Shown one piece after another: positions 2,804 through 13,089 of a stretch of 64,000 nucleotides of DNA. Positions within the stretch are counted from its first letter, which is position 1, and each line of letters begins with the position of its first letter. Source of the stretch: Chitinophaga horti (GTDB lineage Bacteria; Bacteroidota; Bacteroidia; Chitinophagales; Chitinophagaceae); NCBI RefSeq assembly GCF_022867795.2, contig NZ_CP107006.1, positions 1,922,001-1,986,000 on the forward strand, given 5' to 3'. The position numbers were made by a program, and so were the translations under genes. The notes beneath the pieces are model-generated. The model saw only the letters and a list, made by a program, of their open reading frames with translations. It made no database searches and was not told the origin of the DNA.

Positions 2804-4207
2804 ATGAAATTTATTTTGACATTGGTACTATCGTTGTTAGTCTGGCGCGCCCAGGGGCAAGATTATGGTTTGGGTGACAAAACAACGCAAGCGGAATTAA
2901 ACAGATTGCCCCTTTCTAAAGAAATTTCAAGTAAGGAGATATTGCCCACTTCTTACACGTTAAAAAGGTATACGCTTCCCCCCGACAACCAAGGGCCTAG
3001 ATCCACTTGTGCGGCCAGGGCGGTAGCTGCAGCCAGATCAATTCTCTACGCCTATGCACGAGGGTTTACAAATAGCGATAGTTTGAGGAAATACAAATTC
3101 TGTCCGGAATATTTATATTATAAGATTAAGAAACCGAACGACAGTGGTTGTATAAAAGGTGCGTCTGTTACGAAAGCGCTGGATGTTGTGAAGAAAACAG
3201 GAATCGTATTGAGAAGCCAGGGCTTAGGTGATTGTCCCCCGTATGTGGATAGTAATTCCGCAAAGCAGGCGGGCCGTTATAAATTAAAAGCGGATTCTCT
3301 CTTAAGCGATAAAGGGGCCGCTTTGAGTGCCACAACGATACTGAAGATAAAAAGGGCGCTTAAGCGAAACAATCCTGTGGTGATTTCAATGAGGTTTTAT
3401 GAATCATTTCGTAAAGTTGGGCGCGATGGATTTTGGGCGTATTCACCTACCGAATCACTCGGTGATACCCTCCACCATGCGATGTGTATTGTTGGGTACG
3501 ACGACTTTAAAAAGAATGGGTCATTTGAGGTGATTAACAGCTGGGGCAGCGGTTGGGGTAACAATGGTTATTGCTGGCTTACCTATGAACAACTGCTGCA
3601 ACATGTGCGCTATGCCATTGAGGTGATCGACTATAACGCTAATGCGGAGATTATTACCGGAAAGATAGAACTGTTATTGCCGGATAATAGTCCGTTAAAT
3701 TTTCGCTTAAAACAGCCGGGCAATAATGAGACGGATACCCGGCTTGGGAATGCCGTTCGATACGAGATGTTAGACACCTTTCCAACCGGGATCACGTTTA
3801 AGATGAAGCTCGGTCTTACCGCTAATGGTTATGTATACCTGTTTTCAAGAAAGAAAGATGATTCTTTTTCGTTGGTTTATCCCTCTCAAAAAACTACGCC
3901 GGCAACATTCAATTCTGCTAACCAATCTTGTACACTGCCTTCTAAAGGAAGCTTTCATGTAAATGAGCATAATAGCGAAGAACTCTGCGTTATATTTTCG
4001 AAGGATATCCTGGATGTAGACCGATTGCTAGATTGCGCTAATACCAACAGGATGGGCCTGCAGGAGGCGCTGCAGGAAATATGTGGTGTTCCGCCAGAGC
4101 AAATTAATGACGCCTTTTTTGACATGCAAAATATGCAGTTTAAAACACCAAAACACCGTCGCTATTTCCTGATTTGTTATTCATTCAATATAAATACGAT
4201 GCTATGA
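2804..4207 (+). CDS. Secreted papain-like (C1) cysteine peptidase with C-terminal DUF4384-like domain
   Basis: The ATG at 2804 opens a signal peptide (MKFILTLVLSLLVWRAQGQ); the in-frame ATG at 2762 would put charged residues ahead of it. Numbered from 2804 (467 residues), all papain-type catalytic positions are visible: Gln63 and Cys69 in DNQGPRSTCAARA, His225 in HHAMCIVGYDD, and Asn245 in VINSWGSGWGNNGY. Residues from about 290 form a beta-rich region (GYVYLFSRKKDDSFSLVYPS) that resembles DUF4384, a domain often found with caspase-like peptidases. The stop overlaps the start of the caspase-like gene (ATGA at 4204-4207), so the two are coupled. The substrate is unknown. Codon use and composition differ from flanking genes. 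Confidence 0.85.
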   Translation: MKFILTLVLSLLVWRAQGQDYGLGDKTTQAELNRLPLSKEISSKEILPTSYTLKRYTLPPDNQGPRSTCAARAVAAARSILYAYARGFTNSDSLRKYKFCPEYLYYKIKKPNDSGCIKGASVTKALDVVKKTGIVLRSQGLGDCPPYVDSNSAKQAGRYKLKADSLLSDKGAALSATTILKIKRALKRNNPVVISMRFYESFRKVGRDGFWAYSPTESLGDTLHHAMCIVGYDDFKKNGSFEVINSWGSGWGNNGYCWLTYEQLLQHVRYAIEVIDYNANAEIITGKIELLLPDNSPLNFRLKQPGNNETDTRLGNAVRYEMLDTFPTGITFKMKLGLTANGYVYLFSRKKDDSFSLVYPSQKTTPATFNSANQSCTLPSKGSFHVNEHNSEELCVIFSKDILDVDRLLDCANTNRMGLQEALQEICGVPPEQINDAFFDMQNMQFKTPKHRRYFLICYSFNINTML

Positions 4208-5844
4208 GGTATTTATTAATCTTATTAACGACACTATTATCTATATCAGTTGCATACGGCCAACCAGTAAAAAATACACCTGAAGTTACCTGGATTAGCC
4301 CTAAGACAGTGCAATCCAACACAACTGCCGATAAGTTGAGTGTAGAGGTCTGCGTTAAAAGCAGTACCAAACTCAAGGATGTAAAACTGTACCTGAACGA
4401 TAAAGAAGTAAAGCCTAAAACGTTAGATACCGTACCGGACGTTGTATCTGTACGTCCCAATAGCTGCAACAAGCTAGTAAAAGAGGTGTTGGTGTTGTCG
4501 AAAGGCGCCAACTACCTTAAATTGGTCGCTACGAATGAAGCTGGTGCTACCACGCAAACCTATACGGTAAGGTATAGCCAGCCGAGGATTAGTGTTGTAG
4601 ACGCACCTAAGCCGGAACGAAGGAAGGCTCTGGTAATCGGCAATGCGCGCTACGCATCCCAGGCGTATATTCCCAATTGTTATAATGATGCCGATTCGAT
4701 TGAACATATCTTTAAGAAATTGAATTTTACAGTGGTCAAAAAGATGGACCTTTCCATGCAATCATTTTTGCAGACCCTCGATTCTTTTTGCGTGGACATT
4801 GATCAATACGACGCCGTAGTCGTCTATTACAGCGGACATGGATTCGAAGTGAACGGGTTTAATTGTATGTTCCCGGTAGATGCCACGGTAGCCGACTTGC
4901 CAAATTTATTAGGTCAGTATAGTATCACCAGCGATCCCAGTAACCCGATCATGCAACGTTTTTTTGCAAATGGCGTAAAAAAGACAATTTTTATTTTGGA
5001 CGCCTGTAGAGACAATCCGTTAAGCGATGCGCTTAAAGATGATGGGTATGGCAAACACCTAAAGTCAGCTCATTTCGATAAAAAGACCTTTTTAATCGAC
5101 AGTAGTGATCGTACGAGGATGCGAATTGAAAAGGACAATGGGGTTAGTGCCCCAGCCGGCTGCCTGATAGCGTATGCGACCGTTGCGGGAATGAAAGCGG
5201 AATCTGTTTCCCGGAATAGCGGACGTAACAGTCCATACACCGCAGCGCTTTTAAAAAATTTGAAACGACAAGGACTGCCAGTCATCGACATGCTGAAAGA
5301 AGTGCAGCGTACGTTGAAAAATACCCGGCTACTTGAACAGGATTGTTCCTTTTATTACAGCCTACCGGAGGATTTTACGTTTAATATGATAGATACCTCC
5401 TTATATGCTAGTAGAAATGGCGTATTGATGAATTATACAGACGAGCGGGATAAAAAGTATTGCGGTGTATACAGGAGCATATCGATAGATACGGAAGCCA
5501 TGGAGGACACCGTAAGTGGCTTGCAATTTCACCTCGATTTTGAAGTGAATGGTATGCGGGGAGATGGGCGTGTGTATATAGAGTTTTATGACGAGCAGGG
5601 GCTACCGCTGAAAGACTTTAATCAGGCCTGGACGGACGGGAATATACGGTTGAGGTCGGAATTTTCCACCAACAACTATAGTTACTCAAATAGTGATCTT
5701 AGCCGCGACCTGTTTTTGTCTTATGCCAGTTTTGATCCGGCGTTGAAGGGGCAAACAGTGCATTATGTTATCACAGCGAGCGCGAATGACTATATAAAAC
5801 TAAAAACGAAATTGCGGCCTTTAGTGTTGCCAGTTTGGAAATAG
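4204..5844 (+). CDS. Secreted caspase-like (C14) peptidase
   Basis: The start at 4204 gives a signal peptide (MRYLLILLTTLLSISVAYGQ) and a 4-base overlap with the papain-like gene. The 546-residue product has an Ig-like N-terminal region (about 25-125, VTWISPKTVQSNTTADKLSV). A caspase-hemoglobinase fold follows: RRKALVIGNARY, a catalytic His212 in YYSGHGFEVNG, and Cys268 in IFILDACRDNP. A beta-rich C-terminal region (about 390-546) is not recognised. The DACRDNP form is common in bacterial caspase homologs (orthocaspase type), which usually cut after Arg or Lys; specificity here is inferred. Export to the periplasm or surface argues against a cytoplasmic cell-death role. Confidence 0.88.
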   Translation: MRYLLILLTTLLSISVAYGQPVKNTPEVTWISPKTVQSNTTADKLSVEVCVKSSTKLKDVKLYLNDKEVKPKTLDTVPDVVSVRPNSCNKLVKEVLVLSKGANYLKLVATNEAGATTQTYTVRYSQPRISVVDAPKPERRKALVIGNARYASQAYIPNCYNDADSIEHIFKKLNFTVVKKMDLSMQSFLQTLDSFCVDIDQYDAVVVYYSGHGFEVNGFNCMFPVDATVADLPNLLGQYSITSDPSNPIMQRFFANGVKKTIFILDACRDNPLSDALKDDGYGKHLKSAHFDKKTFLIDSSDRTRMRIEKDNGVSAPAGCLIAYATVAGMKAESVSRNSGRNSPYTAALLKNLKRQGLPVIDMLKEVQRTLKNTRLLEQDCSFYYSLPEDFTFNMIDTSLYASRNGVLMNYTDERDKKYCGVYRSISIDTEAMEDTVSGLQFHLDFEVNGMRGDGRVYIEFYDEQGLPLKDFNQAWTDGNIRLRSEFSTNNYSYSNSDLSRDLFLSYASFDPALKGQTVHYVITASANDYIKLKTKLRPLVLPVWK

Positions 5845-5897
5845 AAGTTTTGGAATTTAAAGCGTTAATACGGACATCTCCGAAATTTCAATCTAAA

Positions 5898-5942
5898 CAG
5901 AAAGTCAGCCTATTCCGGTTGGCTTTCTGTTTAATTGTTTTA
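5898..5942 (+). terminator. Terminator after the caspase-like gene
   Basis: CAGAAAGTCAGCC (5898-5910) pairs with GGTTGGCTTTCTG (5917-5929) with two G-T wobbles and is followed by TTTAATTGTTTT. It closes the papain/caspase transcription unit. Confidence 0.75.
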
Positions 5943-6290
5943 ATCCCTCTACTAGGCGTCAGCTCTTTGTTTAAATAAACAAGTCGCCCATGCCACCCTC
6001 ATGAGCAGATATTGAGACTCGAAATACACCGCCGGATACTTCCCTCAATAGCAGGCGGGTGGTCAGCATAAGATCATCCCCCATGTGGATGGCCGAAGTT
6101 CTTTAGTTTTTTGGTTTCCCATATTTTTCGGCGGCCAGGGCTGATGGGGATGATGTATATGGGGTGCGCGGGTGGCATCTCCTTGCCCTTTGAAAAGTCG
6201 TATTTTCCTTATTCGAGTTGCACGTATCAGGTTTTTGATTTATATTCGACATAAAGGAATTTACCCCACTTTGCCGCCTCAATACCTGTT
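5943..6290 (+). other. Gene-free stretch carrying a degraded pirin-like fragment
   Basis: No intact frame is visible. Bases 6005-6033 closely match the early coding part of the pirin gene (109-139), sharing GCAGATATTG, then CTCGAAATA and ACCGCC, with two small gaps and two substitutions. The rest is not recognised. The last bases before 6291 may hold a promoter for the small membrane protein gene, but no clear -33/-7 pair can be assigned. Confidence 0.45.
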
Positions 6291-6509
6291 ATGAAAGGAT
6301 TTGTATCCACACTCAGCACATTCGTAGTCTTATACTGTGTATTAATTGGGATACTTTACGCGATTCCTGAATTGCAGCCAGGTTTAAATTTCCAACGCTC
6401 GCTTTTACGCGGAGAGGTGTTGGTACCTGTAACCGCTATTTACATACTGTTATTTTATCTTGTTTCTTACTACCTAAAAAAGCAGAAGTATGATAAAAAG
6501 AAGTCTTAG
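6291..6509 (+). CDS. Small membrane protein with two transmembrane segments, unknown function
   Basis: This 72-residue product has two hydrophobic stretches, about residues 5-25 (TLSTFVVLYCVLIGILYAIP) and 42-62 (VLVPVTAIYILLFYLVSYYL), joined by a short loop and ending in a lysine-rich tail (KKQKYDKKKS). The arrangement suggests a helical hairpin in the inner membrane with a cytoplasmic tail. It overlaps the next gene by 20 bases, which suggests coupling and joint function. No known family is recognised. Composition resembles the preceding protease genes. Confidence 0.6.
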   Translation: MKGFVSTLSTFVVLYCVLIGILYAIPELQPGLNFQRSLLRGEVLVPVTAIYILLFYLVSYYLKKQKYDKKKS

Positions 6510-7056
6510 CACTATCATATTATCGCTACTTTTCCTAGCTAGGCCAGCTGCCGCTCAGGGCATAATGGATGAAATGATGGCTGTCCCTGGAACAGTTGTT
6601 TCATTTTTTTCGGGCTTAATAAAAAAGGGAGAAAGTCTCGCCACGTATCAGGATAAGAAAAGCTTCCTGAAGATTAGTTCTTCCATTTATTCAAAAACAG
6701 GCAAAGTGATTAAACGGAAACAACAAGTGCTGGCGGCGTTGAAAGACTCATCTGCCACACGCCAGCAGCTTACGCGGGATGTTGACAAATGGATGTCAAC
6801 TATGCGTGATCTTATAGAGATAGTTGATAAGAGCAACGATATCGGCGAATCGGTAGGGACAGATGCCATTAATCAGTTAAATCAATTAACGGCCGATCTA
6901 AATGGGAAAATGGCCTATCTGGAGTCTGGAAAGCTTGTTAACCATACCGACCGTGCTGAGGCTGCAGTGAAATTGCAAGAAAGTATAGATGTTCTTTCGA
7001 AAGGGCATAGTCAATTGAAGGTGTTTATTGATAGTTTGAGGAAGAGTATTGAATAG
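6490..7056 (+). CDS. Secreted, mostly helical protein of unknown function
   Basis: The start at 6490 lies inside the preceding gene and opens a signal peptide (MIKRSLSTIILSLLFLARPAAAQ). The remaining residues of the 188 are charged and helix-rich, with coiled-coil-like patterns (STMRDLIEIVDKSND, AAVKLQESIDVLSKG) and no cysteines or catalytic motifs. It probably acts in the periplasm, perhaps against the two-TM partner encoded just before it. No family is recognised. Confidence 0.6.
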   Translation: MIKRSLSTIILSLLFLARPAAAQGIMDEMMAVPGTVVSFFSGLIKKGESLATYQDKKSFLKISSSIYSKTGKVIKRKQQVLAALKDSSATRQQLTRDVDKWMSTMRDLIEIVDKSNDIGESVGTDAINQLNQLTADLNGKMAYLESGKLVNHTDRAEAAVKLQESIDVLSKGHSQLKVFIDSLRKSIE

Positions 7057-7075
7057 AGAAGGCGACATGCCCCCC

Positions 7076-7654
7076 TCAATGAAACCTCTCCCCCCGCTCC
7101 AGCTTCCCAATAATCACCAACATCCTCTTCTCCCGCGTCTCCGCCTTCTTCGCCGTCTGCAACCGCCAGTTAATCGCAAAAAGATTGGTCTTATTCAGCG
7201 TCTTAAAAAAGGCGTAAGCCACCTTGTTCTTCTTTAACAGCGCAATAAAATCAGCAGGCGTCTCGCTGCTGGACGGTGGGTCGTAGGCAGCAGCCCAGCG
7301 GCCGTCTGCCTTGGCTTCTTCGATGGCTTTGTGCCCGGCGGCCTGCATCCTCCCGGCTTCGGTCAGCCGGGCTACATGATCAATGTTGACTTTCGACCAA
7401 AGGCTTTTGGGGCGGCGGGGGCAGAAGCGCTGCAGGTATGACTGATCATCATGTTTATTGGCCTGTCCGTCGATCCAGCCGTAACAGAGGGCTACGTCCA
7501 ATGCGCCGGCGCGGTCCAGGGATTTAACGCCGGAATCTTTCTTATAGAGTTGCAGCCAAACGCCCGATACTTCCTGGTTTTTCTTTAACCAGGTTTCGAA
7601 TGCTTTTGCTGTCGTAAAAAACTTTATTTCCTCTCCGTTTTTTGCTGTTGCCAT
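7076..7654 (-). CDS. YdeI/OmpD-associated family protein
   Basis: The 192-residue product reads as a member of the YdeI/OmdA-like family: FFTTAKAFETWLKKN at the start, GVWLQLYKKDSG, then ALDVALCYGWIDGQ and FCPRRPKSLWSKVN, with a C-terminal helical part containing ADFIALLKKNKVAYAFF. Family members have been linked to bacteriocin or antimicrobial-peptide protection, but the biochemical role is not established. It is cytoplasmic, with no signal peptide, and is divergent from the NIF3-like gene. Confidence 0.85.
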   Translation of the reverse strand: MATAKNGEEIKFFTTAKAFETWLKKNQEVSGVWLQLYKKDSGVKSLDRAGALDVALCYGWIDGQANKHDDQSYLQRFCPRRPKSLWSKVNIDHVARLTEAGRMQAAGHKAIEEAKADGRWAAAYDPPSSSETPADFIALLKKNKVAYAFFKTLNKTNLFAINWRLQTAKKAETREKRMLVIIGKLERGERFH

Positions 7655-7697
7655 AAGGTAAATTTAATGAATTATCTTACGGGTACAATCAATTCAC

Positions 7698-8588
7698 ATG
7701 TACCCTGAATTCAACCACTCAATTCCACGGAGAAAGTTCATTGGTGACCTCAGCAAAACTGCAGCGGGACTGGCAGTCCTGGGCTGGCAGCCGGGGCATT
7801 TATCGCTAACAGTACAGCAGGTGATGGACCTGGTCCTGAAAGAAGGCAACCTCTCACGAATCGCCGACACGGTCGATACGCTGAAAACCGGGCACGCCGC
7901 GCAGCCTGTCACGGGTATCATCACCACGATGTTCCCCACGATCAATGTCATACAGGAAGCGATTAAACATAAGGCAAACTTCATCATCGCGCATGAACCT
8001 GCGTTTTACAACCATAAAGACGATAAAGGGTGGGTGAAGGACAACGGGGTGCTCCGGCAAAAGCTGGCGATGATCGACAAACACCAGATAGTTATCTGGC
8101 GCTTCCATGACTACTGTCACGCTTTACAGCCAGATGCGGTGAGCTATGGTGTGGCCCGAAAGGCAGGGTGGGAGCGGTACTACAAAACAGGACAACTGTC
8201 GCTGACAATCCCTGCTATCTCCTTAAAGCAATTGGCGCAGCACCTTAAAACGTCATTAGGTATCTCGCAGGTCCGGGTTATTGGCGACCTGGCCCAGTCT
8301 TGTACACGTATTGCTTTGATGCCGGGCGCCTGGGGCGGACAGCGGCAGGTTAATGCGGTGGAAACGGAAAAGCCGGATGTCCTGATCGTCGGCGAATTGT
8401 CAGAATGGGAAACGGCCGAGTATATCCGCGACGCTAACCTGCTGGGGCAAAAGAAAGGGCTGATCGTTCTGGGGCATAGTGTAAGCGAGGAGCCGGGCAT
8501 GGAATATTTCGCGGAGTGGCTGCGGCCTAAACTGCCTGGTATCAAGGTTACACATGTCTCCTCTAATGATCCTTTCACCTGGTTGTAA
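7698..8588 (+). CDS. NIF3-like dinuclear metal centre protein with Tat-like N-terminus
   Basis: The 296-residue product starts with PRRKFIGDLSKTAAGLAVL, resembling a twin-arginine signal, followed by a NIF3-like domain. Visible family features include TGIITTMFPTINVIQEAI, NFIIAHEPAFYNH (metal-binding His), HDYCHA, and the C-terminal VLIVGELSEWETAEY with LGHSVSEEPGME. NIF3 proteins bind two metal ions and form hexameric rings; their reaction is mostly unknown. An exported NIF3-like protein is unusual for the superfamily as a whole. The ATG at 7698 lies within an inverted repeat GGGTAC...GTACCC (7681-7686, 7700-7705). Confidence 0.8.
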   Translation: MYPEFNHSIPRRKFIGDLSKTAAGLAVLGWQPGHLSLTVQQVMDLVLKEGNLSRIADTVDTLKTGHAAQPVTGIITTMFPTINVIQEAIKHKANFIIAHEPAFYNHKDDKGWVKDNGVLRQKLAMIDKHQIVIWRFHDYCHALQPDAVSYGVARKAGWERYYKTGQLSLTIPAISLKQLAQHLKTSLGISQVRVIGDLAQSCTRIALMPGAWGGQRQVNAVETEKPDVLIVGELSEWETAEYIRDANLLGQKKGLIVLGHSVSEEPGMEYFAEWLRPKLPGIKVTHVSSNDPFTWL

Positions 8589-8597
8589 CAACATAAC

Positions 8598-8922
8598 ATG
8601 TCAAATAGAACTTTCGACCCTTTTCCTTTGCTAACGACGCAAAGACTTACGCTCAGGCAGCTCCGCATTGATGATGACACGGCAATTTTCACATTGCGTG
8701 CGGATGAGGAAGTAGGGAAATACCTCAACCGGCAACCAGCCACCACTATTCATGATGCAAGAAATTTCATAAGCAGGATCAACGAAAACGCAGCTAAGGG
8801 CAACGCTGTACATTGGGCGATTACGTTGACTTAAACAGACTTGTTGATCGGCACCATTTGTCTGTTCAACTTTTCTGACAACAACGAAAAGTGCGAGATC
8901 GGCTACGAACTGCTGCCAGGTT
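8598..8922 (+). pseudogene. GNAT N-acetyltransferase remnant, stopped and 3'-truncated
   Basis: The frame begins like a ribosomal-protein-type GNAT (FPLLTTQRLTLRQLRIDDD, then DEEVGKYLNRQPATT) but meets TAA at 8832-8834. The same frame continues in sense after it (TDLLIGTICLFNFSDNNE, then CEIGYELLP) until about 8922, where the sequence becomes the 3' end of the opposite-strand cheB gene. The acetyl-CoA-binding half is missing. A nonsense change plus loss of the 3' end indicates a true pseudogene rather than a single read error. It lies 9 bases after the NIF3-like gene. Confidence 0.8.
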
Positions 8923-9493
8923 CCCTGACCTTCTCCACGATCTTTCTGCGGATGTCGCCGGGCTTCAATACATAATCGGGATGATCATTGGCGATCAGCG
9001 TATGAGGCATCCTCGGAAATGCCGCTGTTTCCGGGTCCTGGACGATAACAATGCCACCGGCTTTCTCTATGGCGTAGGCGCCTGAAAGTCCGTCGGTGCC
9101 GGAACCGGAAAGGATAATGCCGATAGACTTTTCTTTCGCATGCTCCGCAAGACTGTGGAATAGTACATCTATACTATGGTTCACGATATCTTCCGGTGAC
9201 CGTTCTTCGATCATCACCAGCCGGTCCCTGACTTTCAGTTGGTGGCCGTAAGCCGGTACGTATACAGTCCCGGGTTCCAGGTACTCCGTGGTTTCCACTG
9301 CCACAACCTTGATATCTGCCCGCCGTTCCAGGATATGCGCCAGGTTACTTTCTACATTCCTGAGGATGTGATGCATCACAATAATCGCTGCCGGCAAATC
9401 TTTAGGTAGCTGGCTGATGATTTCCACCAAGGGCTCCAGGCCACCGGCAGAGCAGCCGATAGCAATCACATAAAAGTCTGACTCGTTGATCAT
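8903..9493 (-). CDS. Stand-alone CheB-type protein-glutamate methylesterase domain
   Basis: The 196-residue product is only the catalytic domain of CheB, with no receiver domain. Residues matching the catalytic triad are visible: Ser15 in IGCSAGG, His41 in IVMHHI and Asp134 in ILSGSGTDGLSGA. Such single-domain esterases are common in Bacteroidota and are often tied to stress or hybrid sensor systems rather than classic chemotaxis; no chemotaxis genes are nearby. Its last codons (PGSSS) lie in DNA shared with the GNAT remnant, so the original C-terminus may have been replaced at the junction near 8920. Confidence 0.88.
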   Translation of the reverse strand: MINESDFYVIAIGCSAGGLEPLVEIISQLPKDLPAAIIVMHHILRNVESNLAHILERRADIKVVAVETTEYLEPGTVYVPAYGHQLKVRDRLVMIEERSPEDIVNHSIDVLFHSLAEHAKEKSIGIILSGSGTDGLSGAYAIEKAGGIVIVQDPETAAFPRMPHTLIANDHPDYVLKPGDIRRKIVEKVREPGSSS

Positions 9494-9597
9494 AAAAAGT
9501 ACGGGTTCCTTACAATCCAGGGAATTGACAACATGTATGCCACTCGCATGTATGGCTGGGCACGTTATTTGGAATACTGAAGCCTCAAATCCTTTTT

Positions 9598-11319
9598 GTG
9601 TATAAAGATCACACCCCGAATTTGGCGATCATCGGTGGAGGGCCTGGTGGCCTGTTCATGTTTAAACGACTACTGGAGCAAGATGAAAAGAATTGGACGA
9701 TTACCATTTTCGAAAAGAATGACTGCCTGGGTGCAGGAATGCCTTACAGTAAAGACGGCGCCTGCCTGGAGCATGTGACCAACGTATCCGGCAACGAGAT
9801 CCCGGAAATCGTAGTAGGGTTGGCAGATTGGGTCAAAACACAGCCTGCCGCATTCCTGAAAAGTTACGGTATAGACGCAGATAAGTTTCACGAATACAAG
9901 GTCGTGCCACGGCTGCTGTTTGGCGCTTATCTCAGCGACCAGTTTAAACGCCTGAAACAACGTGCCGTCGATGCAGGCATCAAGGTGACTTGCCACTTCG
10001 GGACGGAGGTGACGGACATTATCGACGAGCCGGAAGGCCGCACAGTTACGGTTTGTACGGCGGATAAGTCTTATACGTTTGACAGTGTCATTATTGCTAC
10101 AGGGCATTTCTGGCCGCGGATACATGAAAACGAGGTAAAGGGATACTTCGACTCACCGTATCCGCCTTCCAAGCTCGATTTTACGGTGAATGGCCCGGTG
10201 GCGATCAAAGGTGCGTCGCTCACCGCTATAGATGCTATTCGTACGTTGGCCCGCAACCACGGACACTTCCAATCCAATGATGACGGCCGGTTGCAGTATA
10301 CGCTGAAAACGGATCATCCGGACTTTAATATCGTTATGCATTCGCGCAATGGCTTGTTACCTGCGGTACGGTTTCACCTGGAAGATAGTACGATGGGACG
10401 GAGTACGGTGTTGACGCGCGACGAGGTGGTGGCCAACCAGGAAGAAAACGGTGGTTTTCTGTCGCTGGACTATGTCTTCGAAAAGACCTTCAAAGCGCCA
10501 CTCCGTGAGCGCCATCCGGCGTTTTACCAGGAAATCCACGATATGGGGATCGAAGCATTTGTCGACAGGATGATGACGATGCGCGAAAATATTCCTCCGT
10601 TCGATCTGTTTAAGGCGGAATATGTGGAGGCGGAAAAATCCATCCGCAGGCAACAACCCGTACACTGGAAGGAAATGCTGGCGGTACTGAGCTTTACGAT
10701 GAACTTCCCCGCTAAATATTTTTCGGCAGAAGATATGTTACGCCTGCAAAAAACACTGATGCCGCTCATCTCATTGGTGATCGCTTTTGTACCACAAAGT
10801 TCAGCTGCCGAAATGATCGCACTTTATGAGGCAGGAATATTGCAGTTACAAAGTGTCGGTGATAATAGCCACGTAGAACCGCAGCAGGAGGGAGGTGTTA
10901 TTTACTCCATTTGGGATGATGCGGGCGAAGAACGCAACACTTCGTACCCGTATTTCATCGATTGTACAGGCCAGCCGCATCTGAAATTCGAGGACTTTCC
11001 GTTCAAAGGTCTTCACAGTGGCAGTATCAGTCCTGCAAAAGTGAAGTTTGCGGACCAGGCAAAAGGCGAAGCGGCGTATAAGGATGGGGATCCCAGGGTG
11101 AGTAAGGATGCCGCAGGCAATTACTACCTCAGTGTGGGTGGGATCGCGATCAACGATCATTTCCAGATTGTGGATCAGTATAATGCTTATAACGAGCGCA
11201 TTTACGTGATGGCTGTACCCTTTATGAGCGGATTTAACCCGGACTACTCAGGACTCGATTTTTGTGAAGCCGCGTCGGCAGCCATTGCAACAGCGCTGTG
11301 TATATCCGCGACAAAGTAA
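9598..11319 (+). CDS. FAD/NAD(P)-binding protein
   Basis: The start is GTG at 9598; no in-frame ATG lies close upstream. The 573-residue product opens with a dinucleotide-binding motif (LAIIGGGPGGLFMFKRLLE), followed by ITIFEKNDCLGAGMPYS and a second conserved segment SVIIATGHFWPRI, as in the FAD-NAD(P)-binding family (NAD_binding_9 type). The C-terminal part has YFIDCTGQP and VMAVPFMSGFNPDYSGLDFC. The substrate is unknown. It is 30 bases ahead of the DUF2383 gene, so the two probably form an operon, and it is divergent from cheB. Confidence 0.8.
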   Translation: MYKDHTPNLAIIGGGPGGLFMFKRLLEQDEKNWTITIFEKNDCLGAGMPYSKDGACLEHVTNVSGNEIPEIVVGLADWVKTQPAAFLKSYGIDADKFHEYKVVPRLLFGAYLSDQFKRLKQRAVDAGIKVTCHFGTEVTDIIDEPEGRTVTVCTADKSYTFDSVIIATGHFWPRIHENEVKGYFDSPYPPSKLDFTVNGPVAIKGASLTAIDAIRTLARNHGHFQSNDDGRLQYTLKTDHPDFNIVMHSRNGLLPAVRFHLEDSTMGRSTVLTRDEVVANQEENGGFLSLDYVFEKTFKAPLRERHPAFYQEIHDMGIEAFVDRMMTMRENIPPFDLFKAEYVEAEKSIRRQQPVHWKEMLAVLSFTMNFPAKYFSAEDMLRLQKTLMPLISLVIAFVPQSSAAEMIALYEAGILQLQSVGDNSHVEPQQEGGVIYSIWDDAGEERNTSYPYFIDCTGQPHLKFEDFPFKGLHSGSISPAKVKFADQAKGEAAYKDGDPRVSKDAAGNYYLSVGGIAINDHFQIVDQYNAYNERIYVMAVPFMSGFNPDYSGLDFCEAASAAIATALCISATK

Positions 11320-11349
11320 TTTTTCCATTAACCATATAACAAAACAATC

Positions 11350-11805
11350 ATGAGTATTACATCCAAAACAATCGGAACCCTGAATGATCTCATCGAACTG
11401 AATAATGACCGCATCGCCGGTTTTGAAAAAGCGATGTCAGACATTAACCAGGAAAATGTGGACCTGAAAGAGTTATTTCAAAAGTTTGCCGCTGACAGCC
11501 GCAAATTCTCACAGGAACTGACAGCCATTGTTGCTACCCAGGGTGGCGAGCCTGAAACGGGCAATTCTGCGTCCGGCACCTTACACCGTGTGTGGATCGA
11601 CGTAAAGGCGATCTTCGGTGGCTCCGACCGCAAAAGTATTCTCGCCGAAGCAGAGCGTGGTGAAGACGCGATTAAAAAGGCTTACCAGGATGCGTTGATC
11701 GACGGCGAATTGTCCGGAAATGCATTAGAAACGGTGCGGGAGCAATCCACTGCCATCACTGCAGGCCACGATGCGATCAAGGCGCTGCGGGATGCGCATA
11801 AATAA
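11350..11805 (+). CDS. PA2169-type four-helix bundle protein (DUF2383)
   Basis: The 151-residue product is entirely helical and starts with TIGTLNDLIELNNDRIAGFE, typical of DUF2383/PA2169 ferritin-like proteins. It continues with NVDLKELFQKFAADS and a central GTLHRVWIDVKAIFGGSDR segment. Its length fits the family. Function is unknown; genes of this type are often linked to stress. It follows the FAD-binding gene closely and is closed by a hairpin terminator. Confidence 0.88.
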   Translation: MSITSKTIGTLNDLIELNNDRIAGFEKAMSDINQENVDLKELFQKFAADSRKFSQELTAIVATQGGEPETGNSASGTLHRVWIDVKAIFGGSDRKSILAEAERGEDAIKKAYQDALIDGELSGNALETVREQSTAITAGHDAIKALRDAHK

Positions 11806-11855
11806 GTCTGCGACACATGACATCCGGGCTCCTAAGCCTGGGAACTATTTAAATG

Positions 11856-11890
11856 ACGAAAGGGGCAGTGTTGTACGCTGCCCTTTTCGT
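11856..11890 (+). terminator. Hairpin terminator after the DUF2383 gene
   Basis: ACGAAAGGGGCAG (11856-11868) pairs with CTGCCCTTTTCGT (11878-11890), 13 base pairs with one G-T wobble. There is no long T-run after it, so termination may be partial. Confidence 0.6.
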
Positions 11891-12030
11891 TATTGGGGCC
11901 TGGCTGATTGCCGGCTTCCAGGTTAAAGGTGAATAACCCGTGGTTAAACCCCGACTTTCAGCAACATACCAGCTGTACTAAATTCCTGCCCCGGTTAAAA
12001 AAACACTATATTCGATCTACAAAATCACCT

Positions 12031-13089
12031 ATGTTAAAAACCACGGCCGTTTTCCTTATACTGCTGCTCTTTTCTGCAACCAGCTACGTTTCAGCCCAAT
12101 CTCACATTGGTACCACCGGTTCTTTCTGCAGGTATGCCAAAAATAGTCTTCGGGATAGAAATATCTACAGGGAGGGCCATACCCAATGCCCCGCCTGTGA
12201 TCTGGAAGACGAAAAAGAAGAGGTTGCCAGAAGAGCGGAGGATAAACGCCGGCAGGATGTGAAAAATGCTGCAATCGCCGCACAGCGGCTGGCAGAAAAA
12301 AAGGCACAGGAAGAACTTCTGAAAAAGAAGCGGGAAGCAGATAAGGGCGTAACTGAAGTCGCTGTAACCATGCCCGCTGATAAAAAAACGGTAAATAATG
12401 CTGTAGCTGCCAGTCCTGCAGTGGGGGACGGGATGTTAGCCGGTTACTTTTATGACGAAGCAGCCACAAATAACCAGTCGCTCGGCCACATGATCTTCCA
12501 TATAAACCAGGGCGAAAGAAACAACCAGACGTATAAATTATACAGTGATGTCAATTATTTCGTACTGAACAACAAACGGATACTCGATAACAATGAATTT
12601 AAAGCGTGCATAGGGGTCAGGAGGTTGTCGGATAAAGACCAGGGTAATGCGTATCAATTTCCAGCCGGCGTCGGTATCGTTATTTTAAATGAAATCAACG
12701 GGGAGCACGTGATTGCAGACCTGGTAGACGTTACGGGAAAGAGGTTGCTGAAAGACGACAATATATCCACGATCGTTCATTTTTACGGCGACTACTTTAT
12801 CCTGCTGGAAGGGAAGGTTTTTACCCCCGGCAGTTATCCTCATGCTTCTTTCCAGTTTGACGATGGCGTGATATATAATTATAAAACAAAACAACGGCAT
12901 CCACTGGCCCGGTACAGTGAAACCCGGGTGAGCGTTGGATGGCATGTGAATGCGACTTATCTCCCCAAAAACAAACTCCGTGATAAATCTACTTATAACG
13001 CCTTTTTGGAAGTGCACACAGGCTGGAATACCTCTTCGATATATTATATCACCAATGAGGGCAAAGTAGCATCCGATGCTATTCATTAG
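12031..13089 (+). CDS. Secreted protein of unknown function with charged coiled-coil segment
   Basis: The ATG at 12031 starts a signal peptide (MLKTTAVFLILLLFSATS, cleaved near VSAQ); the frame opens further upstream at 11908 but without signal features. The 352-residue product has a cysteine pair (QCPACDLEDE) followed by a strongly charged helical stretch rich in Lys, Glu and Ala (about 65-115). A beta-rich C-terminal half includes GVGIVILNEINGEHVIADLV. It overlaps the next gene by 14 bases. No family is recognised; the CxxC could bind metal or form a disulfide in the periplasm. Confidence 0.7.
   Translation: MLKTTAVFLILLLFSATSYVSAQSHIGTTGSFCRYAKNSLRDRNIYREGHTQCPACDLEDEKEEVARRAEDKRRQDVKNAAIAAQRLAEKKAQEELLKKKREADKGVTEVAVTMPADKKTVNNAVAASPAVGDGMLAGYFYDEAATNNQSLGHMIFHINQGERNNQTYKLYSDVNYFVLNNKRILDNNEFKACIGVRRLSDKDQGNAYQFPAGVGIVILNEINGEHVIADLVDVTGKRLLKDDNISTIVHFYGDYFILLEGKVFTPGSYPHASFQFDDGVIYNYKTKQRHPLARYSETRVSVGWHVNATYLPKNKLRDKSTYNAFLEVHTGWNTSSIYYITNEGKVASDAIH

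Follow-up and report, generated by a model that had tools for sequence, protein, structure and literature searches.

We analysed a stretch of 64,000 nucleotides from Chitinophaga horti (contig NZ_CP107006.1, positions 1,922,001 to 1,986,000 of the forward strand; hereafter the window), in which genes for two cysteine peptidases lie back to back. Gene 1 encodes a papain-like (C1) protein and gene 2 a caspase-like (C14) protein. Their features are listed below, with positions counted from the first base of the window; model confidence is given as predicted local distance difference test (pLDDT) scores.

2804..4207, forward strand: gene 1, 467 residues, a cysteine peptidase of the papain family (C1) carrying a C-terminal DUF4384 (ATG 2804, stop 4205-4207)
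2804..2860, forward strand: gene 1 predicted signal peptide, residues 1-19, end approximate (hydrophobicity heuristic; model helix 2-16)
2861..2941, forward strand: gene 1 pro-segment, short (residues 20-46), in which SKEI occurs twice ahead of Leu-Pro 47-48; Lys39 and Lys44 are candidate sites at which a caspase may cut
2942..3637, forward strand: C1 catalytic domain, residues 47-278, with Gln63, Cys69, His225 and Asn245 (residue table; VIA-align range 19-278)
3779..3964, forward strand: DUF4384 region, residues 326-387 (PF14326)
4204..4207, forward strand: ATGA, start of gene 2 overlapping stop of gene 1 (read from the sequence)
4204..5844, forward strand: gene 2, caspase-family (C14) peptidase, 546 residues (ATG 4204, stop 5842-5844; PF00656 E 2.8e-33)
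4204..4263, forward strand: gene 2 predicted signal peptide, residues 1-20, end approximate (hydrophobicity heuristic; model helix 2-17)
4279..4575, forward strand: immunoglobulin (Ig)-like beta region, residues 26-124 (model strands 27-124; weak matches to Big_7, E 0.013, and Cadherin-like, E 0.016)
4606..5397, forward strand: caspase domain, residues 135-398, with His212 and Cys268, and with Asp162 and Asp266 of a predicted S1 pocket for basic residues
5050..5127, forward strand: loop at residues 283-308, beyond the active-site Cys, rich in Lys/Arg and modelled with low confidence, a possible processing linker (pLDDT <50 at 283-291 and 297-308)
5464..5841, forward strand: C-terminal beta-rich region, residues 421-546, family not recognised (strands 421-541, pLDDT blocks mostly 83-92; no confident Pfam match)
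5894..5933, forward strand: terminator-like hairpin 3' of the pair (17-pair stem, loop of 6, T-rich tail)

Much of this layout had been proposed in an earlier reading of the same DNA from its letters and open reading frames (the sequence-only reading). Its description of a C1 and a C14 gene overlapping by four bases was borne out by the ATGA junction and by matches to PF00112 and PF00656. The catalytic residues it called intact are all in place, and the DUF4384 it put at the C-terminus of gene 1 was recovered near the cut-off. The signal peptides it predicted on both proteins agree with the Lys/Arg, hydrophobic stretch and small-x-small cut site that the heuristic finds at both N-termini. Two other claims stood in part. 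The Ig-like and further beta domains of gene 2 appear as strands in the model, but the Ig-like region is weak by sequence. The single terminator after the pair corresponds to the hairpin with its T-rich tail, but this signal is weak by itself, with 6 terminator-like matches in the region against 4.1 in shuffles.

Judged from its sequence, gene 1 belongs to papain family C1, with the Gln-Cys-His-Asn set and a PF00112 match above the cut-off (E 1.7e-14; 54.9 bits against 20.7). A fold search of residues 4-278 supports the C1 domain, and a C1 relative found in the protein search, P0002, is 56% identical. The DUF4384 match reached 25.3 bits (E 1.7e-5), below the 27-bit cut-off, in the Pfam search and 27.5 bits, slightly above it, in the genome scan. 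Inhibitory I29 propeptides are common in eukaryotic members of the papain family, though not universal. No long I29 propeptide was found in gene 1 by Pfam at E 1, and about 27 residues lie between its signal peptide and the mature domain.

Gene 2 is a member of C14, with a His-Cys dyad in a caspase fold and a PF00656 match above the cut-off. The caspase domain is supported by a fold search of residues 132-397, and MALT1 was the best solved relative both by sequence and by fold. A caspase relative found in the protein search, P0017, is 56% identical to gene 2; P0017 and P0002 each lie on a JGI contig of 16,946 bases, which to judge by this length is one and the same. A scan of genome contigs with the gene 2 caspase as sole query found no relative. 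The EACC1-associated caspase model NF047832 gave gene 2 35.4 bits, below its curated cut-off of 140 bits. No match to the Pfam Ig domains PF00047, PF13895 or PF13927 was found in gene 2 at E 1, and neither protein of the window pair had a Pfam match to a toxin domain. Across the whole genome there were five C1 matches in three open frames, one DUF4384 match (gene 1) and two PF00656 matches, of which only gene 2 was strong (118 bits; the other 22.8 bits). With so few copies in the genome, the adjacency of the two genes is not a by-product of many copies.

The pair recurs well beyond this genome. Loci were collected with a five-protein C1 alignment (A5), two rows of which came from loci already known as paired, and the best 80 of 126 named genome loci by C1 match were kept; one without a C1 frame (L231) was dropped, leaving 79. 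A wider caspase profile was used for the locus counts, as a narrower one missed the divergent partner in L037. A caspase gene on the same strand directly adjoined the C1 gene in 28 of the 79 loci, compared with 20 caspases among 703 non-adjacent genes nearby. With the two seeding loci removed, 26 of 77 were still adjacent (binomial p 4e-14). Adjacency fell steeply down the C1 similarity ranking, from 17/20 through 10/20 and 1/20 to 0/19. The C1 gene came first in 20 of the 28 adjacent pairs and the caspase gene in 8, with a median intergenic gap of 25.5 bases. Named carriers include Ferruginibacter, Flavihumibacter, Solitalea, Dysgonomonas, Arcicella, Flectobacillus, Pedobacter, Chitinophaga and Aureispira; by taxon label, one of the 28 loci (L165) is Chlorobi and the remaining 27 are Bacteroidota. 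The C1 alignment also matched 18 loci in viral contigs (L241-L258), none of them with a caspase by the caspase profile.

A second sample covered 395 genomes of the phylum Bacteroidota at a C1 match threshold of 1e-20, and may share some species with the first, as G128 does (L174). A C1 match was present in 23 of the 395 genomes, the window's own included, with 27 matches in total. Among the 26 matches from other genomes, a same-strand caspase gene directly adjoined the C1 gene in five, was separated from it by one gene in five and by two in one; one further caspase adjoined on the other strand, and 14 matches had no caspase in the fetched stretch. No more than two genes separated a caspase from the C1 gene in 11 of the 12 strongest matches; of the 14 weaker ones, 1 had a caspase, on the other strand. 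The sequence-only reading had made recurrence of the ordered pair outside close relatives a test of its hypothesis. These counts uphold the recurrence, although the order is not fixed. The conserved papain-caspase gene pair is thus real, and no prior description of it was found among the matches listed in the open-licence literature.

Some loci hold more than two such genes. In L270 (5793-12660) a single cluster contains two caspase genes together with a tandem of two C1 genes. Four short caspases of 277-296 residues share one locus in a same-genus genome (L152 of G021, 5155-12927), and L155 (G030, 4026-10425) has two tandem 1060-residue proteins with near-identical caspase domains.

In a tree of 87 C1 proteins, from which L237 (>900 residues) was left out, the paired label required 9 changes compared with 24.2 in shuffles, so that paired C1 proteins cluster. 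The 25-row clade containing gene 1 has 20 paired rows among 21 that could be classified; in the sole exception, the Spirochaetaceae locus L186, the caspase adjoins another, weak C1 match. Pairing was found in 29 of 40 classifiable rows of the wider 44-row clade and in 1 of 40 in the rest of the tree. The common C1 relatives of 520-540 residues (e.g. L193, L199, L203, L206-L209, L211 and L224) form a separate clade without the pair.

The following counts refer to 30 pairs, including the window and P0002. DUF4384 was detected at E 0.01, a level at which not all need reach Pfam's cut-off, in 29 of the 30 C1 proteins. Their Gln-Cys-His-Asn set was complete in 28, with Ser in place of Cys in L184 and a truncated sequence in L192. 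All 30 caspases keep His and Cys, and Pfam confirmed PF00656 at E 0.001 in 27. The L184 protein (8998-10284), which lies beside a caspase, also has a pro-segment without a basic residue, and may be a dead partner kept as a scaffold. Ser likewise replaces the catalytic Cys in an unpaired C1 relative (L039, 8041-9507).

The caspase side is less uniform. In a tree of 120 caspase domains, in which the L037 caspase was labelled unpaired though it adjoins a C1 gene, the paired label required 16 changes (27.6 in shuffles), at least 10 of them forced by starred branches; several long branches meet in this tree and single placements are unsure. The window's C1 sisters L161, L162, L163 and L192 pair with caspases of a lineage marked by the motif DACF[SA]G, and the caspase of this lineage in L131, taken as the counterpart of L161, bears TPRs. 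The window caspase sits in another, starred lineage. Placing the window-type caspases and those of the C1 sisters in one clade was rejected by an approximately unbiased (AU) test (log-likelihood difference 100, p 3e-51), for a group that also contains P0018-P0020, whose neighbours are not visible, and a second L192 caspase. C1 and caspase tree distances were nevertheless correlated over the 30 pairs (r 0.50, reached in 0 of 5000 permutations). The two proteins thus appear from their trees to be mostly co-inherited, with the partner swapped now and then. Accessory parts of the 30 caspases vary in kind: TPR in 7, WD40 in 6, a Glucodextran_B-type Ig-like part in 6 and MORN in 4. A PEGA part occurs in the caspase of L270, and WG repeats in that of L037. 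Because pairing was kept while the partner changed, functional coupling is likely, and we regard it as very probable that the C1 protein and the caspase of a pair work together.

Where they might do so is suggested by their N-termini. Export was scored with a heuristic other than SignalP, requiring Lys/Arg, a hydrophobic stretch (hydrophobicity floor 1.9) and a small-x-small site. It predicted export for 26 of the 30 C1 proteins and 27 of the 30 caspases, a count in which two C1 sequences and one caspase sequence are cut by contig ends. The sequence-only reading had argued that export speaks against an intracellular suicide role. The counts agree, as predicted export of both members in most pairs disfavours a purely cytoplasmic role of this kind.

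Asp162 and Asp266 (window numbering) are present in all 30 paired caspases and align with the MALT1 positions that we take to be numbered Asp365 and Asp462. Since this pair of aspartates is found throughout, a preference for basic residues at P1 is predicted for the paired caspases. They share the acidic S1 residues of the basic-specific C14B group (para-, meta- and orthocaspases). An excerpt of PMC4357240 describes the roles of MALT1 Asp365 and Asp462 at S1.

Candidate sites for such an enzyme were sought in the last nine residues ahead of the mature C1 domain, leaving out L192, which has no pro-segment. The pro-segment of gene 1 ends in SKEISSKEILP, containing Lys39 and Lys44, and the Leu-Pro at 47-48 presumably aligns with the N-terminus of mature papain. 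Lys/Arg followed by Asp, Glu, Ser, Ala or Gly occurred in 36 of 40 pair-clade C1 proteins compared with 5 of 41 others (7/11 compared with 2/14 in the second sample), and Arg in 29/40 compared with 8/41 (8/11 compared with 0/14), for patterns settled after both sets had been seen and in related sequences that are not independent. The last nine residues of gene 1 itself contain Lys and no Arg. The paired C1 protein without a catalytic Cys (L184) has neither residue there. This basic pattern is a lead for activation of the C1 protein by the caspase, not proof of it.

We propose that the pair forms an extracytoplasmic activation relay, with the caspase as its first enzyme, and put the probability of this reading at roughly 0.45. 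The acidic S1 pair of all 30 caspases, together with the basic residue in the C1 pro-segment, is the indirect evidence from which a cascade of the kind suggested in the sequence-only reading is inferred. The variable part of the caspase (Ig-like, TPR, WD40 or MORN) would sense a signal or dock to it, and the caspase would then cut the C1 pro-segment after Lys/Arg, switching the papain-like partner on. The constant C1-DUF4384 protein would be the downstream executor, and the relay would operate in the periplasm or at the cell surface. That one of the two proteases acts on the other, in whichever direction, is somewhat more probable.

Several observations weigh against this proposal, besides the late choice of the patterns just described. 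Gene order flips, with the caspase gene first in 8 of the 28 adjacent pairs. Three C1 proteins of the pair clade (L181, L197 and L216) have no caspase in the fetched stretch, and many caspases, also within branches holding paired ones, have no neighbouring C1 gene. The third S1 residue of MALT1 is not conserved in the alignment, being Glu in 3 of the 30 paired caspases. A three-residue pro-segment motif, [KR][DEASGN][FYLIM], separated the first set (29/40 compared with 2/41) but failed in the second sample (1/11 compared with 1/14) and was rejected; its background was 21% in shuffled pro-segments, and elsewhere in these proteins 147 of 1353 windows contained it. Nor is the second sample separated by the presence of any Lys/Arg among the nine residues before the mature domain (9/11 compared with 8/14). 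The basic pro-segment site could serve self-processing or another protease, and the export of both proteins is a heuristic prediction.

The relay might also run the other way, with the exported papain-like enzyme cutting the basic loop of the caspase and the caspase acting as executor. Loop 283-308 is long, rich in Lys/Arg and of low confidence in the model, as an inter-subunit linker would be, and the C1 gene precedes the caspase gene in 20 of the 28 adjacent pairs. However, it is the caspase that varies and bears repeats, and so looks like the sensor side, and no site signal was found other than the one in the C1 protein. We consider this direction unlikely.

It is equally improbable that the two are co-regulated secreted proteases with separate targets, engaged in scavenging or surface turnover and not acting on each other. 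In favour of such a role, both proteins look exported and the bacteria carrying them come from a group known to use polymers, but enzymes of the caspase family are generally specific rather than digestive. The retention of pairing despite a changed partner suggests dependence, and the TPR, WD40, MORN and Ig-like parts fit signalling. So do the genes nearby: a membrane protein of CHASE2 type in some loci and a histidine kinase in another point to signalling more than to nutrition. The CHASE2-type proteins form one cluster, have between two and four hydrophobic stretches each and are encoded close to the pair in seven loci. Pfam matched CHASE2 in L168, L179 and L187/L034, below the cut-off in L183 and not in L162 or L188; the L170 member lay in a piece outside the Pfam scan. 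In L201, genes for a histidine kinase with TPRs and for a response regulator of LuxR type come after the C1 gene, with a 1099-residue caspase protein farther on, and L174 has genes of similar length at the corresponding position.

A role in envelope defence or competition, with the caspase as a sensor of phage or contact damage and the C1 protein as the killing or disarming agent, has less in its favour and appears quite unlikely. Bacterial caspase loci do include conflict systems, the C1 family has a patchy distribution (matched in 23 of the 395 phylum genomes), and the MALT1-like caspase of Canu activates a pro-enzyme according to the excerpt of PMC12799240. Against this, export argues against cytoplasmic suicide, and the PADLOC caspase model matches gene 2 weakly (22.4 bits). 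We also compared 79 flanking proteins of 120-900 residues, encoded up to two genes away on each side of the 28 adjacent pairs, with PADLOC. Matches were scattered, with no model in more than two of them (the best were AbiLii at 1e-26 in one and mad2 at 1.2e-18 in two), and a defence island was rejected. Chance neighbours or hitch-hiking, for which the common 520-540-residue C1 relatives without a caspase neighbour might speak, are highly improbable given an adjacency count far above background and recurrence in many genera with changed partners.

Taken broadly, the relay led by the caspase might represent a widespread extracytoplasmic cascade, in which a constant papain-DUF4384 executioner zymogen is switched on by a lineage-specific sensor caspase (Ig, TPR, WD40, MORN or PEGA). 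Such a cascade would parallel, in the envelope, the division of caspases into initiators and executioners, using two peptidase clans; we advance this wider view tentatively and with some doubt. To our knowledge, a partner or substrate has been identified for few of the many bacterial caspases. The C1 neighbour, constant amid changing caspase lineages, is a likely direct partner of a set of exported caspases, and the pair points to one testable stretch of residues, the pro-segment with Lys39 and Lys44 in the window. If the proposal is true, regulated caspase proteolysis takes place outside the bacterial cytoplasm.

The genes flanking the window pair were also considered, including whether their products have a metallo-beta-lactamase (MBL) fold.

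899-2200: upstream neighbour, redoxin, not MBL by Pfam
6490-7056: downstream neighbour, 188 residues, signal-peptide-like start, beyond the pair's hairpin, no confident family, not MBL by Pfam

No empty insertion site for the pair was demonstrable, as no relative among 36 genomes had both flanks: the 899-2197 gene was found at 1e-60 only in the window's own genome, and the gene at 7079-7654 at 1e-30 in 8 of the 36, its own included. Elsewhere, an FGE-sulfatase (FGS) gene follows a pair-type C1 gene in L181 (10350-11708) and L272 (7755-8918). L181 has no caspase in the fetched stretch, and in L272 the caspase comes after the FGE-sulfatase gene.

The pair can be compared with several known systems. 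Bacterial orthocaspases and metacaspase operons resemble gene 2 in peptidase family and in their varied accessory domains, including WD40 and DUF4384 (excerpts of PMC3501461, PMC6426788 and PMC7475262). Their DUF4384, however, lies within the caspase protein itself (PMC7475262 and PMC6426788, as excerpted), whereas here it is on a separate papain-family partner. According to an excerpt of the 2012 operon survey (PMC3501461), 23 of 217 caspase operons contained a proteolysis domain, and a word search of the survey returned neither papain nor Peptidase_C1. Conflict-system caspases are paired with other partners, e.g. alpha/beta-hydrolases, in the excerpts of PMC8195603 and PMC7159879. In polymorphic toxins, a releasing peptidase is itself one domain of the toxin that it releases (PMC3482391, excerpt); the present proteins, in contrast, stand alone, with no Pfam toxin domain. 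Among papain-family proteases of bacteria, Xylellain (3ois) has a chain of 291 residues, too short for a DUF4384 tail. We know of no caspase partner of Xylellain.

MALT1 shares with gene 2 an Ig-like region, a caspase domain, a C-terminal beta region and the S1 Asp pair; unlike MALT1, gene 2 is bacterial and has a predicted signal peptide. Gene 2 thus resembles a paracaspase, but by its sequence it falls outside the definition in the excerpt of PMC6426788, which places a Pfam Ig domain ahead of p20 and which, as stated there, no prokaryotic sequence meets. The Canu system KaeCanABC, as described in the excerpt of PMC12799240, also has a MALT1-like caspase with an Ig-like fold and TPR/Ig loci. 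It differs in serving defence and in having as partner an MBL-fold nuclease, encoded as an adjacent pro-nuclease, whereas both genes flanking the window pair are non-MBL by Pfam and the partner here is a predicted exported papain-family protease. Among the systems compared, Canu is the nearest in mechanism, its caspase activating the adjoining pro-enzyme.

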